From positions 434,001-498,000 of the forward strand of contig NC_018208.1 in assembly GCF_000219625.1 (NCBI RefSeq): DNA of 64,000 nucleotides. The letters run 5' to 3'. The stretch comes from Zymoseptoria tritici IPO323. Its lineage: Eukaryota > Ascomycota > Dothideomycetes > Mycosphaerellales > Mycosphaerellaceae. The number at the start of each line of letters is the position of its first letter. Position 1 is the first letter of the stretch. Shown in pieces: positions 23,658 through 30,645 of this stretch. The position numbers were made by a program, and so were the translations under genes. The notes beneath the pieces are model-generated. The model did not search any database. It saw nothing but the letters and a program-made list of their open reading frames with translations, and had not been told where the DNA came from.

Positions 23658-23666
23658 ACCGGTCCG
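23658..23666. repeat. Left 9-bp target-site duplication
   Basis: ACCGGTCCG lies directly before the left inverted repeat and recurs at 30637-30645 directly after the right one. The two inverted repeats then align base for base from their outer ends. A 9-bp duplication is typical of Mutator-like elements. Confidence 0.75.
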
Positions 23667-23768
23667 GTGGGTGTAGCTGACCTCACAGCGCTAAAATCTC
23701 GGTAAATCCGCGCTAAACGCGGGTAACATCCGTACTTAGATGCAAAGATTTTTACTGTAAGCCGAGCT
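23667..23768 (+). repeat. Left terminal inverted repeat (102 bp)
   Basis: Contains CTGACCTCACAGCGCTAA near the end, then CGCGCTAAACG, and closes with ACTGTAAGCCGAGCT. All three blocks recur in the same order in the reverse complement of 30527-30636, with indels between them. The first few outer bases agree only partly. Confidence 0.85.
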
Positions 23769-23885
23769 TCCCGAGATCCTTACTGTTACATTAACATTAT
23801 TACCGACATCGCATATTCTATTACCTACATTGCAACATAGCGGCATAGCGTCCTTATAACCTATTTCTTGTCTCTCGAAACCTAT

Positions 23886-26800
23886 AGAACCCTGCGGCCT
23901 ATTAGGTTATCGAGTAACAACAAGCCGCGGCATTGCAAGACTTCGGCAGGCAGGTAGAAGGGGTCGCAAATGTAACTTGACGTCATAGCTAATGTTACCC
24001 TAGATATTATCTATAAGGTTACGCGCGACATTATGGCTAATTTCGATAAATAGGGACGTCGAATCCTATACTACCTCTCCGAACGTACACGTACCTTTGA
24101 GATTAAACATTACGTTCTAATTCCCGAATATCTAAGAACCGCACCGCATAGTATCGGCTATATTATCGATATACGAGCAATCCCGGAGATCCGACCAGCT
24201 ATAGACAAGATTATCCTAAAGGAGATCCAGGGCGCGGTATAGACATTATCGATAAGCTCGGCGATAGGGTTAGGGGTGACCTCACGGTTGATGCTATTGC
24301 TAACATCGCTAGATCTAATATACGAACAAGCGGATTAAAGGTCCGTATATGTCGACAAGCCCTTTCCTTAGAAACGCTCGTGTCCTTCGACTTATAAAAC
24401 AGTGCAGTAGTATTAAACACTGCGAGCATATCGTGCCAGAGGTTATTAATTGATTCTACTCGAATGTAGACGAGCAAGAGTAGATGTAGTACCGAGCTAT
24501 CCGTAACCGACAGGGTACTGCCGCACATAAGGCTATAGATAACCGCGCACGTGCTAACATCGAATTTACTGCGATTTACAACCGTTTTCAAAACTCCCGT
24601 GCATGTACGCCTTATCTAGCGACCTGCACGATGATTTTCCGATAGGATACAACACCGGTAAGATCATCCATACTGTCCCGGCTGATGTTATAGCTAAGCA
24701 CCTAGATGTCATCACAGAACGTTCTATCACAGAACGTTCTTAACTACTTTGGCGCTTCTATCCAGTGTATCTACTACGACTACCACACGGCACCTCTGCA
24801 TATGCATAAGTGGTTTGCGCCGAACGGTTACTTTAGTCTTAATCGATTCGACGAGCTCTTTAACAATCCTTATGCTGTTGCACCACCGGCAGACGAGTAC
24901 TATGCCTATAAGGGCAACTAGTGCCGGAGATTTACATGCGGTAAGCTTATTAACTAGGTTATCGATCACATTATGTGTGAGGACATCGCTGTTATTACTA
25001 ATAGCGTCACCTATAACAACACTGCCGACCTTAGTAGCGACCTCGCTAATAAGATTACAGGAAAGTATTATCCTACCGGTGTTAGCTAATTTGTTTAACA
25101 ACGAGTGCTATGTTAAGCAAAATTTATATAGCTAGTGCTACTCGACTTTAACAGAACTCTAACGATAATTCTCGTTGCGGAAGGGATATATAACTATCCT
25201 TTAAATGGCCCGAACAAGCTGCCTACGCAGATCCGGAACGAGATCTGGAACGTTTTGCTTAGGACAAGGGACCCAACCTTAATAACAAGTATAGCATCAT
25301 TAGCGAGATCATATGTAGCATTACAGCTGACATTATTAGACAAATTCAGAGTTAACCCTCTCGTAAAGGCGTAGATTAAGTTATATAATGTCGAAACACT
25401 AGAGGATGTTTATAATGCTTTGAACTGTAATAATATCGTAGGCAGTATAATCCGTAAGATAAAGGTCCTTATATAGCCGGGTAGCCGGTCGGTGCAAACC
25501 CTGCACCAGGTTTAGATGGCAGAGCAGGAAAAGCCAGCCGATAAGGTAAGATTAACCGTAATATTATGCATAACCTTATCCCCTAGCTTACTAGTAACCT
25601 TAGCAATACCTCCGCGACATCTGGTATAGCGATAACCTCGAGCAATAGATCGTTGTGTGCATGTTCGACGATTAAGCTTAGATCTGGGCTAGTTTGACCG
25701 CTTTCGAGATCGACATAACGTTTAAACGTCTCGAACATCGCATTACCTAAGATAACGAGGTGCTCTTTACATACGAAGGCGAAAGCAACTACAGTAAGAT
25801 AACCTATAGCCTTATACATAACCTCGGTAATAATGTCACCCGTAAGGTTACTAATTCTTTTCTAGTTTTCCCTCTTTGTCGCGTATATAGAAACTTCCGT
25901 AGGGACCAATTCTGGCGACGGCTATTCTATTATGTCTTCGATGTACTTGCCCGGGTCCTTGGTAAGGAGCGGATTTATTAGCGGCATATCCACGGCCGGG
26001 GCTTTGCATGTGTTAAGAGCGACTAGTCCGGAGAGCAACATTCAGGTAGGTAATGTTAAGGATACCCTCGCTAATAATCCTTTCTATAATCCTATCTATA
26101 ACCTTAGCCGTAAGCTTATCCTTTAGTACCGTCCTGACATAATAGTAGGACTTAGTTAATACCTCGAGGATATTAAACTCCCTAGTTAAAACCTCGCTGG
26201 AGACTAGCGAGAACATCTACGAGATGTTCTTATGATATGCCGTGTTCACTTCTTTCGCAATATCGACGAGAAGTTCGGCAAGAACCCAGCCCTTCGGGAA
26301 GCTGTTAGCTAGATAAAGTCACTTACGACAGCAGTAACATAGGAAGAGTATTAGGGATTAGTACATACTTTGTAGGGTAGGTAACGTTACTAATAGCCTT
26401 ACCGATAACCTCGTAGCTAACATTAAGCAGCACACCCGGATCCTAAAGTCGCAAATTGGGCACAGAACAAGGACAATAAGTACGTTGCGTGTAGTATCTC
26501 TAGCTACTTTACCCGTGTTCCGAGGGAGGTATAGCTTAGCGAACGCCCTAATACGAACTCTAATAAGCAATCGGGGTAGGTAGGCCAGTCCTTAGGGAAA
26601 GGTAACGTTATGCCTAATATCAGCGGTAATAACATGCGTAATCTTATACTAACTCCTTCCTAGGATGTAACCTCGTCCTTGCTTATAAGAATAGGAAGTT
26701 AATTAATGCTCGGGCTGTTAGCTAATGGGGAGGGCGAGCTAAGTATGGACAATAGACGTACTAAAAGGATCCCTCGGCACAGAAGCGGGTAGAGAAAAAC

Positions 26801-27517
26801 CTACGACGTCTTGGTAAGGTTATCGCTAATATTAAGGGTAACAACATTGCTAATATAGCCAGCGTTAAAACGCGAAAAGAAGTAGGAACAAGAGCAGGCC
26901 GAACGTCGTCGCCTTCGAGACGCCGTACGGAGGAACGGTAGTAATAACGACGATGACGACAGCGGCGATAATACGGACGACCGTGCAGAACAACAACATA
27001 CGCGGGCGCAACGACGAAGAGACAACCCTGAAGTTGGACATCCAGATGATATCAGCGATAATAACAGCGGTGATAATATGGATAACCCCCTACCCCCTAA
27101 TCCTAATAATGTAGCTATAAGGTGGTTAGAGAATGTTCAAAACAGTTCGCGAGTCTATAAAGAGGGCCGTAGACGGGGTCGTTCGCGGGGTCGTGGACGA
27201 GGGAAAGCATCGAGCGCGAGCTCATTACGGACACTATAGTCGACACTACAGTCTAGTCGGACATTAGTATCGATTCCTTCGGCTTCTACAAGGCAGACTC
27301 CTACCTCTATCGGCCCTAATCCTCCCCAACTAAGGTATGTTGTTACCGGTAATATTACGGATGTTACTATAGCTAACATTAGGTCTCTAGCACTTCTGCA
27401 GACACCGAATATAGGGACAACATGCTAGCTTATGAGCGTGTACGTAATGCGGTAAATGAATCGCGGATTCGGGTACTTCTAGAAGGAGGGCCAGATCTAG
27501 GACTACTGCGTCCATAA
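23886..27517 (+). pseudogene. Mutator-like (MULE) transposase, intron-dense, with RIP-type stops
   Basis: Exons read in one continuous frame when these introns are removed: 23972-24053, 24237-24312, 24658-24705, 24941-25060, 25289-25339, 25546-25603, 25794-25865, 26046-26145, 26377-26430, 26602-26663, 26814-26862, 27335-27390. The frame upstream of 23972 looks coding but the start is not resolved. MULE signatures in order: an N-terminal block with GPNKLPTQIRNEIWNVLL (about 25202-25258); the core FEIDITFKRLEHR, whose Asp (codon 25712-25714) is the probable first catalytic residue; RHIHGRGF (about 25982); MICRVHFFRNIDEKFG (about 26230); VANWAQNK and RPNTN (26447-26567). A basic, Arg/Gly-rich tail follows. 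About thirty in-frame stops are TAA or TAG (one TGA), as if Gln codons had been mutated. Confidence 0.78.
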
Positions 27518-30102
27518 TGTTATCTATAGCAACATAGATGACATTATCGTTAAGATTACCCGCGATGTTAGACTCCTTGGTCCGGTTCCCCTTTCCTATG
27601 TCGACCGATAGGGTTAGGGTTATTAGGGATAAAAACGCTATTCTAGTTAACATTGCAGTATAAGAGCTATTTATTATATATGTCGAGCGATATATCTAGT
27701 ATATTAATAGCTTTATAGTATATAAACGCTACTCTAGTATATATAATAATAGATTAGGCTATAAGCGTAGTTTAAGCATTATTTAACGTCTACGAGATAG
27801 ATATACTAGATTAACGCGTATATAGTATATATATAAGCACTATCCTAGTATATATTAGGCTACGAGCGTAGTTTAGGGACTATATACCGTTATATATAAA
27901 CGCTATCCTAGTATATATAATATGTTAGGCTATACGCTTAGTTTTAAGACTATTTATCGTCTACGAGATAGATATACTAGACTAACGCGTATATAACTAT
28001 ATGTATACACGCGACCCTAATATATAATAGGCTACGAGCTAGCTTAATAAGTATCTCTCGTCTATAAGATAGACATACTAGATTAACCCGCATATAGTAG
28101 TATATATATAAACACTATTCTGTTATTTATTAGGCTACGAGCATAGTTTAATAACTATTATCTATATATATATAATAGATATAGATAATTAACGCGTATA
28201 GAGCATATATATAAACGCTATTCTAGTATATATCGCGGTCTAAGAGCTATTAGTTATATATGTCGAGCGATTATAAGAAGAAGGATAACATGATGTTATT
28301 CGCGACCCTATAGCTGACATCATCGCTGATACTACGGATCTATATTTATTATGAACTAACCTTCGAAGATAAAGACAGAGATGAGTTGATTACTTAACAT
28401 CAGGGGTGAGGTTATAGACGATCTTATCGTATAATTGGATTCGGGCGCTGCGTGCCGGGGTATAATAAAACTGTAGACTCCTCCTGCGCTATACGCTCGC
28501 TTATAAGGTTATTCGTAAGGTTATGCTTGACCTTATTAGACACCCTAATTAATCTAGTCCCTTAGCTTCGGACTATCTAAGAACAAGTCCTAGCCTAGGC
28601 ACTCCTTAATTTCGAAGCATTCGGCTGTAATAAGGTTAGCGATAATATTACGGAGGATAATATAGATAACTTTACTATTCCTAAGATCCTTGCAGATCGC
28701 GCACGGGAAGGCCTTGTTCCAGATGGTCTTGCAGTGCGCTATAGCCTTAGAGTATTTCACCTTTAATAAGGTTAGTAATAAGATTACTAGTAATATTAGT
28801 AATAAACTTACGTCTCCCTTCCTGTGAATAACCTCTCCTTCCTTGTTGCCCCTCTTCTTCTTCGACTTAACATTACCCTTATACATAGGGAATCCAGGCC
28901 TGTCATAAGGTCAGCTATAATATTATCCGTAGTGTTAGGTGTAATGTACTTAGATCCTATAATTTCCGCTGGCGTGCGCGCTAATTTGCTACTAGTTCTT
29001 AGATGTCCAAAGGGGTTTTTATCTCTGCAATAATGTTAGCTATAAGATTACTTATAAGCTTATAGATAACATACTGCTCGACAGTCTGCTCTTCCGGCGT
29101 TTTATTAACATCTTCCTCCCGGCCGCGTTTCTTCAGAGTAGTAGGGCTGTAATAAGGTTAGCGATAATGTTAGGCGTAGGATTAGGTGTTATACACTATA
29201 CTAACAAGATTACTAGGCTTGCCGCTAGCCTTCTCTGTAGCTTCGAAGATCCGGCGGTATTAGGCTAGGCGATAAGGTTAGGAAATAGTCGGCGGTAAGG
29301 TTATAGATGATATTACCCTTAGTCTTAGCGATAACCTTAGACGAGTAGCTACGATCTCCACCCTTCTTGTACTCTCCATCTCTGCCTTCGCCTTAACTAG
29401 AAACTCGGATTCGATGCTAGTAATAAGGTTAGCTATAACATTAGGTGTGACATTAAGTGAAATTAATTTCTTACTACTCCCCTTACGTGCTGCTTAAGGT
29501 TAATAAAGGATGTGGAGCGATCCTAAGAGGGTAAGGTTAGCGGTAATGTTACGGATAAGGTGATTAATAAGCTCACGTTGCACAGTCTCGCCTTATCCCA
29601 GCCCTCTAACTTATACGGGAGAATCGACTTAAATCTATCCTTATCGTCCGAGCTAGAATCCTCCTCTAGTCTAACTATAATAAGGTTAGTAGTAATGTTA
29701 GGGATAATATTAAGTAGAATAATATTCCCTACTTATTTCTGCTACGTGATATAGAACCGGTAGTGTAGGGTTTTTCGCGTCCCTTAAGGTAGATAAGAAC
29801 GCCTCCTTAGTGTACCTAATAATGTTAGCGCTAACCTTATAGCTAATATTAGTCTCTTACATACTTCTACTTCTTCGGCATTAGACAGATTACCCAACCC
29901 TTCGGCACGATTATATGCTAATGTTTATCCTGCCTAGAAGGTTAGCTATAAGCTTAGCGCTAAGGTTATAGATAATAGTATACTAGCTCGAAACTCTTGC
30001 CTCTGAACTCTAATCTATTGTTATATGCCTTAACTATCTTCTTGTAGTATTTCTACATAAGGTTAGCGATAACCTTATGCATAATGTCCTATGTGTCCTT
30101 AC
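23972..30102. repeat. Family of at least 24 short introns sharing a 12-nt periodic sequence
   Basis: Introns lie on both strands of the transposon, 12 per gene, 48-120 nt long. Most carry two to four units of TAAnnTTAnnnn and end in the form GCTAAC-n-TTA-n-AG. Because TAAnnTTA reads the same on both strands, the pattern looks alike in both genes. In the - strand gene they occur about every 106-155 nt. Host genes in this window do not show this pattern inside their introns. Confidence 0.8.
27661..28275. repeat. AT-rich satellite between the convergent transposon genes
   Basis: The landmark TAGGCTA..CG..TAGTTTAA-like sequence begins at 27755, 27856, 27926, 28028 and 28131, spaced 101, 70, 102 and 103 bp. 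Other shared blocks are TATAAACGCTATTCTAGTAT and TACGAGATAGATATACTAGA. Both ends of the array carry the same sequence, TAAGAGCTATT..TTATATATGTCGAGCGAT, at about 27661 and 28241. Units are degenerate. There is no coding potential. Confidence 0.85.
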
Positions 30103-30150
30103 CTGTTCCGTTAAAGCTAAAGTTTAAGACAACGGTCTCTCTTTCGCCAT
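28590..30150 (-). pseudogene. Transposon accessory gene, 13 exons, unknown basic protein
   Basis: Exons: 30150-30103, 30052-29984, 29929-29861, 29805-29733, 29674-29577, 29522-29475, 29416-29336, 29264-29206, 29146-29075, 29024-28950, 28899-28812, 28760-28676, 28624-28590. They sum to exactly 900 nt, 300 codons, in one frame. Introns are 50-71 nt. Four in-frame stops remain, all TAA or TAG. The protein is Lys/Arg-rich. An N-terminal part has IIVPKGWVICLMPKK and LPYKLEGWDKARLC. The C-terminus has CKTIWNKAFPCAICKDL and ECFEIKECL, six cysteines with a CxxC that could bind zinc. I do not recognise the family. The stop at 28590 is a TAG and may itself be a mutated Gln: a further intron-like gap at about 28505-28548 would let the frame run on to about 28395. 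Confidence 0.68.
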
Positions 30151-30526
30151 CTTGTTATATAGGAATTCGGATTAGTAAGGTAAGCGGTAAGGTAAGCGGT
30201 AAGGTCGCGGGTAAGGTCGCGGGTAAGGTAATAGGGTCCTTGAAACTCTCGATTCTTAATAATGCTATTAAGATGTTAGCATTCCTATAAGGTTAATCGT
30301 AATGTTAGGGATAACATACCTATTAACTACCTATAGGGGTAGGTAGTAAGGTAGATAGTAAGACAGTAGAAGGAACGGTAGAAGAAGGTAAGAGCGAACT
30401 TCTCGAATCCGCGCTAGTAGTCTTGGCATGCTGCAGAATACGCACTAGTTTGATATATTCGCAGTAAATCCCAGCGCCTGACCTTATCGATAACCTTAAG
30501 GGATCGATTTTCTAGCTACCCCGCAG

Positions 30527-30636
30527 AGCTCGGCTTACAGTTCCGCTTCCGGCATGTGAGTTCCGCTTTTGGCATGTAAGCCGAAGTTTAGCGCTGTGAG
30601 CCGAGAGATTAGCGCTGTGAGGTCAGCAGGGCCCTG
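30527..30636 (-). repeat. Right terminal inverted repeat (110 bp)
   Basis: Reverse complement of the left end in three blocks. It also contains internal duplications: AGCGCTGTGAG twice (30591 and 30611 region) and a 20-bp unit beginning TTCCGCTT twice (30541-30580). Confidence 0.85.
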
Positions 30637-30645
30637 ACCGGTCCG
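30637..30645. repeat. Right 9-bp target-site duplication
   Basis: ACCGGTCCG, identical to 23658-23666. Confidence 0.75.

Follow-up and report, generated by a model that had tools for sequence, protein, structure and literature searches.

How does a single fungal transposon come to carry some two dozen short introns that resemble one another? The question is posed by a 64-kb stretch of the Zymoseptoria tritici IPO323 genome (contig NC_018208.1, positions 434,001 to 498,000; hereafter the window, from whose first base coordinates are counted unless a contig or locus is named), which holds a complete transposon of 6,970 bp at 23667..30636 with two intron-dense genes. A first-pass annotation of the window had suggested that these introns stem from one source, like introner elements. 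Our analysis of the window and of the whole genome (39.69 Mb, 21 contigs) leads to a different reading, to which we assign a probability of roughly 0.5: that this is a two-gene transposon similar to Mutator-like elements (MULEs), whose ~24 introns and other non-coding parts hold family-specific arrays of 12-bp palindromes that would act as protein-binding sites, as in the VANDAL/VANC system. At its base lie arrays that are nearly absent from exons, two intron sites shared with a distant transposon family, and a motif that has been replaced between the two families.

A 12-bp unit with palindromic core TAANNTTA, repeated in tandem, makes up the intron arrays. In each of the 24 modelled introns (a probable 5' intron of gene 1 counted), the fit to the unit was better than in all 300 dinucleotide shuffles. 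Identity at a lag of 12 nt reached 0.536 in introns on the - strand (shuffles 0.287, z 11.0) and 0.436 in those on the + strand (shuffles 0.264, z 10.1), compared with 0.280 in - strand exons (z 1.3, near background) and 0.292 in + strand exons (a small excess, z 4.8), so that the repeat arrays recognised in the first-pass annotation exceed chance by far. The spacing is strict, with 71 units in register at 12 bp, 11 at a spacing of 18 and 0-4 at every other spacing from 7 to 19. Introns contain 54 of these 71 units, other non-coding DNA 15 and an exon edge the remaining 2. Accordingly, exons hold none in 2,712 nt on the + strand and two in 976 nt on the - strand, both at one intron edge, while the window flanks hold none in 56.9 kb.

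As had been proposed, the arrays can be read as GT..AG introns. Gene 1 (24054..27517, + strand), encoding a MULE-like transposase, was modelled as 12 exons (24054-24236, 24313-24657, 24706-24940, 25054-25288, 25350-25545, 25604-25793, 25866-26045, 26149-26376, 26431-26601, 26664-26813, 26863-27334 and 27391-27517). Its 11 internal introns lie at 24237..24312 (76 nt, phase 0), 24658..24705 (48 nt, phase 0), 24941..25053 (113 nt, phase 1), 25289..25349 (61 nt, phase 2), 25546..25603 (58 nt, phase 0), 25794..25865 (intron B, 72 nt, phase 1), 26046..26148 (intron C, 103 nt, phase 1), 26377..26430 (intron A, 54 nt, phase 1), 26602..26663 (62 nt, phase 1), 26814..26862 (49 nt, phase 1) and 27335..27390 (56 nt, phase 2). 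A probable 5' intron occupies 23972..24053, and the first exon is provisional in the model. Gene 2 (28545..30150, - strand), predicted to encode a basic protein with a pI of 9.5, converges on gene 1 and was modelled as 13 exons with an uncertain 3' end (30150-30103, 30052-29984, 29933-29865, 29805-29733, 29674-29577, 29522-29487, 29416-29317, 29264-29195, 29146-29075, 29024-28950, 28899-28812, 28760-28676 and 28624-28545). Its 12 introns are found at 30053..30102 (50 nt), 29934..29983 (50 nt) and 29806..29864 (59 nt), all in phase 0; at 29675..29732 (58 nt, phase 1), 29523..29576 (54 nt, phase 0), 29417..29486 (58-70 nt, phase 0, with the donor at 29486 or 29474) and 29265..29316 (52 nt, phase 1), whose donor may lie further upstream because the array continues to 29339; at 29147..29194 (48 nt), 29025..29074 (50 nt) and 28900..28949 (50 nt), all in phase 2; and at 28761..28811 (51 nt, phase 0) and 28625..28675 (51 nt, phase 1).

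These 23 internal introns (48-113 nt), to which one to three further candidates can be added, come close to the 12 on each strand counted previously, and the exons of gene 2 are indeed short, at 36-100 nt. The GT and AG borders follow from the construction of the models, and the acceptors at 25053, 25349, 26148, 26862 and 29806 were picked from several alternatives. A branch-like CTRAY site lies close to the 3' end in 21 of the 23 (12/12 on the - strand and 9/11 on the + strand). The final unit of an array reads GCTAACNTTATNNNAG, a branch site plus acceptor, and unit edges read GTAAG, a donor.

Removing the introns was said to join the exons of each gene into one frame. This holds once stops left by repeat-induced point mutation (RIP) are allowed, and neither frame is uninterrupted. 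Spliced gene 2 comes to ~320 codons, not the exact 300 first reported, with six internal stops and a seventh at its possible end; at three of these seven, one or more of the other copies of the element have a sense codon. The modelled frame contains 7 stops, as against 21 and 38 in the other two, and in an intron-blind test only one of 60 frame-scrambled versions reached the real score. Spliced gene 1 comprises 904 codons, a stop at the end and 33 internal stops, which are of RIP type; 18 of the 33 correspond to a sense codon in one or more of the other copies. Here the modelled frame holds 34 stops (the terminal one counted) versus 39 and 83, and 14 of 60 scrambled versions matched the real score, which is not significant. 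The frame rescue thus passes the intron-blind null for gene 2 and fails it for gene 1, and because its frame score alone is not significant, the support for gene 1 comes from homology at its junctions. Gene models that tolerated no stops were dropped, since the + strand gene then needs doubtful introns and many of its stops are RIP stops.

This homology is provided by relatives of the gene 1 product. A genome search with the transposase of the window element (family 1) revealed a distant family 2 at five places, with 26-41% amino-acid identity. Family 2 DNA is also 12-bp periodic, lags of 12, 24 and 36 being the strongest at one of its loci, L056, although the repeated motif is a different one. 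Among its 8-mers the perfect palindrome AACATGTT is the most frequent, with 24 exact copies in 6.66 kb, and the RIP-like derivatives AATATGTT, AACATATT and AATATATT are among the next in frequency. In a looser count made without a shuffle control, 33 chains of at least two core-like sites run along the L056 element. When at most one mismatch is allowed, tandem pairs of AACATGTT turn up at 39 genomic positions (control 0). Of these, 38 are on the five contigs, no more than ~20 kb from a family 2 transposase. The remaining pair stands alone at C13:576441-576460, away from known family 2 copies.

Two introns occupy the same codon, in the same phase, in both families, with the correspondence of junctions placed by hand. 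Intron A follows EEY.GLVHTL in family 1 and EEY.ALVNILK in family 2 (L056 5235-5306), and intron C follows SGEQHS in family 1 and SGT.YY in family 2 (L056 4937-5018), all in phase 1; the stretch matching intron B has one or two family 2 introns, which may or may not correspond to it. Inside introns A and C, each family carries its own unit. Since the sites are shared and the units differ, the sites predate the repeats now found in them. The family 2 transposase also has close relatives in the Golovinomyces cichoracearum proteins P0001 and P0002, to which the gene 1 product is likewise similar. Across junction A, P0001 reads ILKNFEADKRV without a gap, compared with ILKNFEQDERV in the spliced family 2 protein. 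At D, the family 2 junction that follows, the two Golovinomyces proteins share AIEKSRILD, compared with AIKKSRILD in family 2. Among the junctions for which a relative is available, the spliced proteins agree at A and C between the families, at A in family 2 with P0001 though not with P0002, and at D in family 2 with both Golovinomyces proteins. P0001 has 25 additional residues at the position of intron C in families 1 and 2, as if its gene model had retained an intron; the P0001 and P0002 models seem in general to include or lose sequence at intron positions.

Might these nevertheless be repeat insertions that merely resemble introns in a dead element? The stops in the copies seen and the gene 1 frame score fit such an explanation. 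Against it, every aligned copy carries the arrays and none has lost one by an indel, as comparison of the copies proposed in the first-pass annotation could have revealed; gene 2 scores above 59 of its 60 scrambled versions; the protein of another fungus continues without a gap over family 2 junctions A and D; and introns A and C retain their codon and phase between families. We consider this explanation very improbable. The modelled introns are, in all likelihood, real, and the presence of spliceosomal introns within a DNA transposon, as the annotation had it, is supported by the splice signals, by the two junctions common to both families and by the two family 2 junctions that are read through in P0001.

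If the introns are real, one of them could have copied itself into both transposon genes, which was the single, introner-like source first envisaged. As with fungal introner-like elements, related intron sequences are found at many places in one genome: introns within the element are alike over ~50 nt (eleven aligned, mean column identity 66%). Elements of this kind have been reported for Zymoseptoria tritici itself (PMC4457414). However, introns A and C predate the unit that they share with neighbouring introns, which argues against one intron having copied itself around: these sites are common to a distant family that has its own palindrome there. Units also occur outside modelled introns, and so far the related introns have been seen only in one transposon family. 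Fungal introner-like elements are characterised by stable structures or inverted repeats (PMC8469720), whereas RNA folding relative to shuffled sequence gave mean z values of -0.56 (12 introns), -0.28 (11) and -0.41 (4), with two of the 27 introns near -3 and no extra stability on average. The symmetrical introns of Hypoxylaceae (internally symmetrical stwintrons and cropped introns) are similar in that fungal introns with inverted symmetry form families; in theirs, the terminal inverted repeats measure 45-55 nt and the introns have integrated into genes at new positions (PMC8469720), while here the symmetry is that of tandem 12-bp palindromes.

Nor did near-identical copies turn up across a range of unrelated host genes. 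A profile built from 11 gene 2 introns gave 63 matches on both strands of the window (E<=10), all 63 inside the element, so that the spread to host introns that such a search might have revealed was not seen, in the window at least. Genome-wide, a pattern search with 0-1 mismatch gave 69 matches, all 69 inside the six copies of the element; with up to 3 mismatches there were 981, and among the 100 matches listed all were inside the six copies. Arrays of TAANNTTA numbered 188 per strand, of which the examined copies together with L022 account for 163; the remaining 25 places carry 1-2 mismatches. No spread to host DNA was therefore seen at 0-1 mismatch genome-wide or by profile in the window; weaker, diverged matches elsewhere are possible. 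We regard self-copying by one intron as improbable, and the idea of a single introner-like source is not supported. The pattern GCTAAC....TTA...AG was dropped. Its 40 genomic matches divide into 22 and 18 per strand (control 7 and 3), and ten of the 40 carry one identical 18-mer. The four of those ten that were inspected (L001, L004, L006 and L008) belong to another repeat family, 93-94% identical and holding GCTAACATTCTTAACTAG, and the two copies measured for periodicity peak at a lag of 21 instead of 12.

The units outside the modelled introns bear on the level at which the arrays act. One array lies directly past the gene 1 stop (27514..27571), another upstream of the gene 2 start (30274..30319, - strand), perhaps an intron in the 5' untranslated region (UTR), and a third at the 3' end of gene 2 (28495..28544, - strand), perhaps its last intron. 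In addition, a 12-bp repeat lies upstream of gene 2 (30175..30231), and two in-register units lie near the right end, outside the genes (30479..30498). With units outside introns, palindromic cores, fixed 12-bp spacing and no average excess of folding, the sequences point to a role of the arrays at the level of DNA. A role in RNA would instead have the unit repeat the branch-site sequence, securing the splicing of very short exons, or pair within the transcript. The unit does include CTAAC, CTRAY lies near the 3' end in nearly all the introns, and folding z values come close to -3 in two introns. In four family 2 introns inspected by eye, on the other hand, the AACATGTT-type units lack a branch site except for the last, altered one, and neither the units outside introns nor the average folding agrees with action in RNA. 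A function at the RNA level would therefore surprise us.

A further alternative requires no protein at all. Old, genuine introns could have served as a refuge in which 12-bp arrays grew by slippage and were homogenised by conversion between copies and introns. The arrays are found where they would be tolerated, in non-coding DNA, and three length differences between copies of the element measure 12 or 24 nt, one being a 24-nt gain in the array at 30175 (copy L019). Yet the second family has the same 12-bp period and a palindromic core built on an unrelated motif, the window flanks hold no in-register units, and slippage alone would be expected neither to place one unit at more than 20 sites on both strands nor to demand palindromes. 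We judge such neutral satellites unlikely, though less so than the two alternatives just discussed.

We instead propose, by analogy, that the fungal elements work like VANDAL/VANC, with the gene 2 protein most likely binding its own arrays. In Arabidopsis, VANC binds introns, intergenic and terminal non-coding regions, where its targets are short, family-specific motifs in tandem repeats; these repeats expand and contract, and the motifs change together (PMC5735166, PMC10398659). The likeness extends to the elements themselves: both are DNA transposons of Mutator type, or MULE-like in the fungal case, with accessory genes and a short motif tandemly repeated in non-coding parts (PMC5735166, PMC10398659), and in both the motif varies by family, here TAANNTTA versus AACATGTT. 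The fungal element differs in being under RIP, in the strictness of its 12-bp palindromic units, and in having arrays that fill most of the intron in more than 20 introns per element. In the proposed mechanism, each unit would be a double-stranded site bound by an element-encoded protein, for which the basic gene 2 product is the best candidate, with successive units slightly over one helical turn apart. The bound protein would keep the element expressed or protected, as VANC does for Arabidopsis VANDAL MULEs, and the arrays would turn over in 12-bp steps along with the specificity of the protein. They could persist within genes because the unit carries both a branch site and acceptor (GCTAACNTTATNNNAG) and a donor (GTAAG), so that the RNA would lose the array.

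The second gene of family 2 has a comparable arrangement. It too lies on the - strand (model score 3.8, versus -41.3 on the other strand), and it was modelled with 17 introns, several of them doubtful; the one at L056 7573-7524 (50 nt), for example, carries the family's own unit. A C-x2-C-K stretch is alike in the gene 2 products of both families, as judged by eye. The left end of family 2 was searched for and not found.

Several points weigh against the proposal of element-encoded self-binding. The candidate binder has no recognised domain: pieces of gene 2 stayed below the cut-off in Pfam (best E 0.008, to EntA_Immun), a second search gave no match, and a tblastn comparison of gene 2 between families 1 and 2 gave nothing significant (best E 3.1). 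The frame of gene 1 is not significant in the intron-blind test, and P0002, with a different gene model, disagrees at junction A. Functionless slippage of 12 bp could likewise generate the arrays; copies also differ in length by 1, 2, 3, 6 and 15 nt, none of them a multiple of 12; and some of the 15 units outside modelled introns may sit in UTR introns. Finally, no Pfam transposase family matched the gene 1 product at E<=10, in a search weakened by stops read as X, so the MULE label rests on the length of the target-site duplications and on transposase motifs, and we write MULE-like, not MULE.

Family-specific motif arrays and an anti-silencing protein are already known from plant MULEs. If the proposal is right, transposons of another kingdom, facing RIP, have evolved sequence-specific self-recognition, and the layout found here, in which one motif takes the place of another between families at unchanged intron sites, offers a route by which an intron could change its sequence completely without moving, another array replacing the one in an old intron. 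It would also mean that families of introns inside one element need not be introners, which corrects a natural misreading. More tentatively still, and with considerable doubt, fungal transposons might at large have a self-recognition system, for anti-silencing or assembly, with binding arrays in introns; since the palindromic unit also supplies donor and branch signals, expanding arrays would settle in coding DNA and become introns, and an arms race over specificity would create and rewrite them. A literature search by title or abstract found no work on 12-bp palindromic intron arrays in fungal transposons.

The boundaries of the element are well defined. Its ends, GTGGGTGTAG and CAGGGCCCTG, are common to six copies in the genome (~92-96% identity), and the window copy is flanked by the 9-bp target-site duplication ACCGGTCCG (23658..23666 on the left and 30637..30645 on the right, read by eye). 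The terminal inverted repeat has a left arm at 23676..23702 (+ strand) and a right arm at 30601..30627 (- strand), each of 27 nt and 93% complementary. Members of the MULE superfamily have terminal inverted repeats with duplications of 8-11 bp, and fungal MULE/Hop-type transposons have terminal inverted repeats, duplications of 9-10 bp and a transposase with a C-x2-H-x3-N stretch. The present element agrees in its inverted repeats, in the 9-10 bp duplications seen by eye at 6/6 copies and in having a C-x2-H-x3-N stretch, and differs from the MULE/Hop type in lacking a Pfam transposase match and in its two convergent, intron-dense genes. Gene 1 contains DITFKRL, Q..GL..YL and CRVHF..N, which we take to be motifs of MULE transposases, although no Pfam transposase model bears this out; pieces of family 1 compared with Pfam, PDB and a large protein collection gave no useful match.

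Differences between the copies are almost only C/T changes, a sign of RIP. Compared with the others, the window copy shows 1,990 counted differences (some loci overlap). Transitions make up 1,900 of them, and for 1,887 a neighbouring base was counted, which in 1,596 cases gave a CpA/TpA context on either strand. Within the element stretch, unlike in the flanks, TpA is over-represented and CpA depleted. Three copies are unbroken (the window copy, C1:5050759 and C10:1144576), those at C7 and C1:1184606-1199536 are each interrupted by other DNA, and the copy at C2 has part of its central repeats doubled.

These central AT-rich tandem repeats, of ~103 and ~171 bp, lie between the two convergent genes at 27620-28280, and the C2 copy seems to be one unit longer there. 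At 24710-24740, the window copy has a 15-bp duplication (ATCACAGAACGTTCT) that is a single unit in the five other copies covering it. A third relative of the transposase, family 3, is laden with stops (L059, C5:2361800-2366300; C5:2363713), with its strongest lags at 33 and 11. Lag 12 is outside its top three, but it was not used as an intron-free control, as it may have an intron at site A. Lastly, an isolated right end, ~90% identical and adjoined by one 12-bp array (L020 1420-1556; C12:1168341-1168396), is the remnant of a diverged relative.

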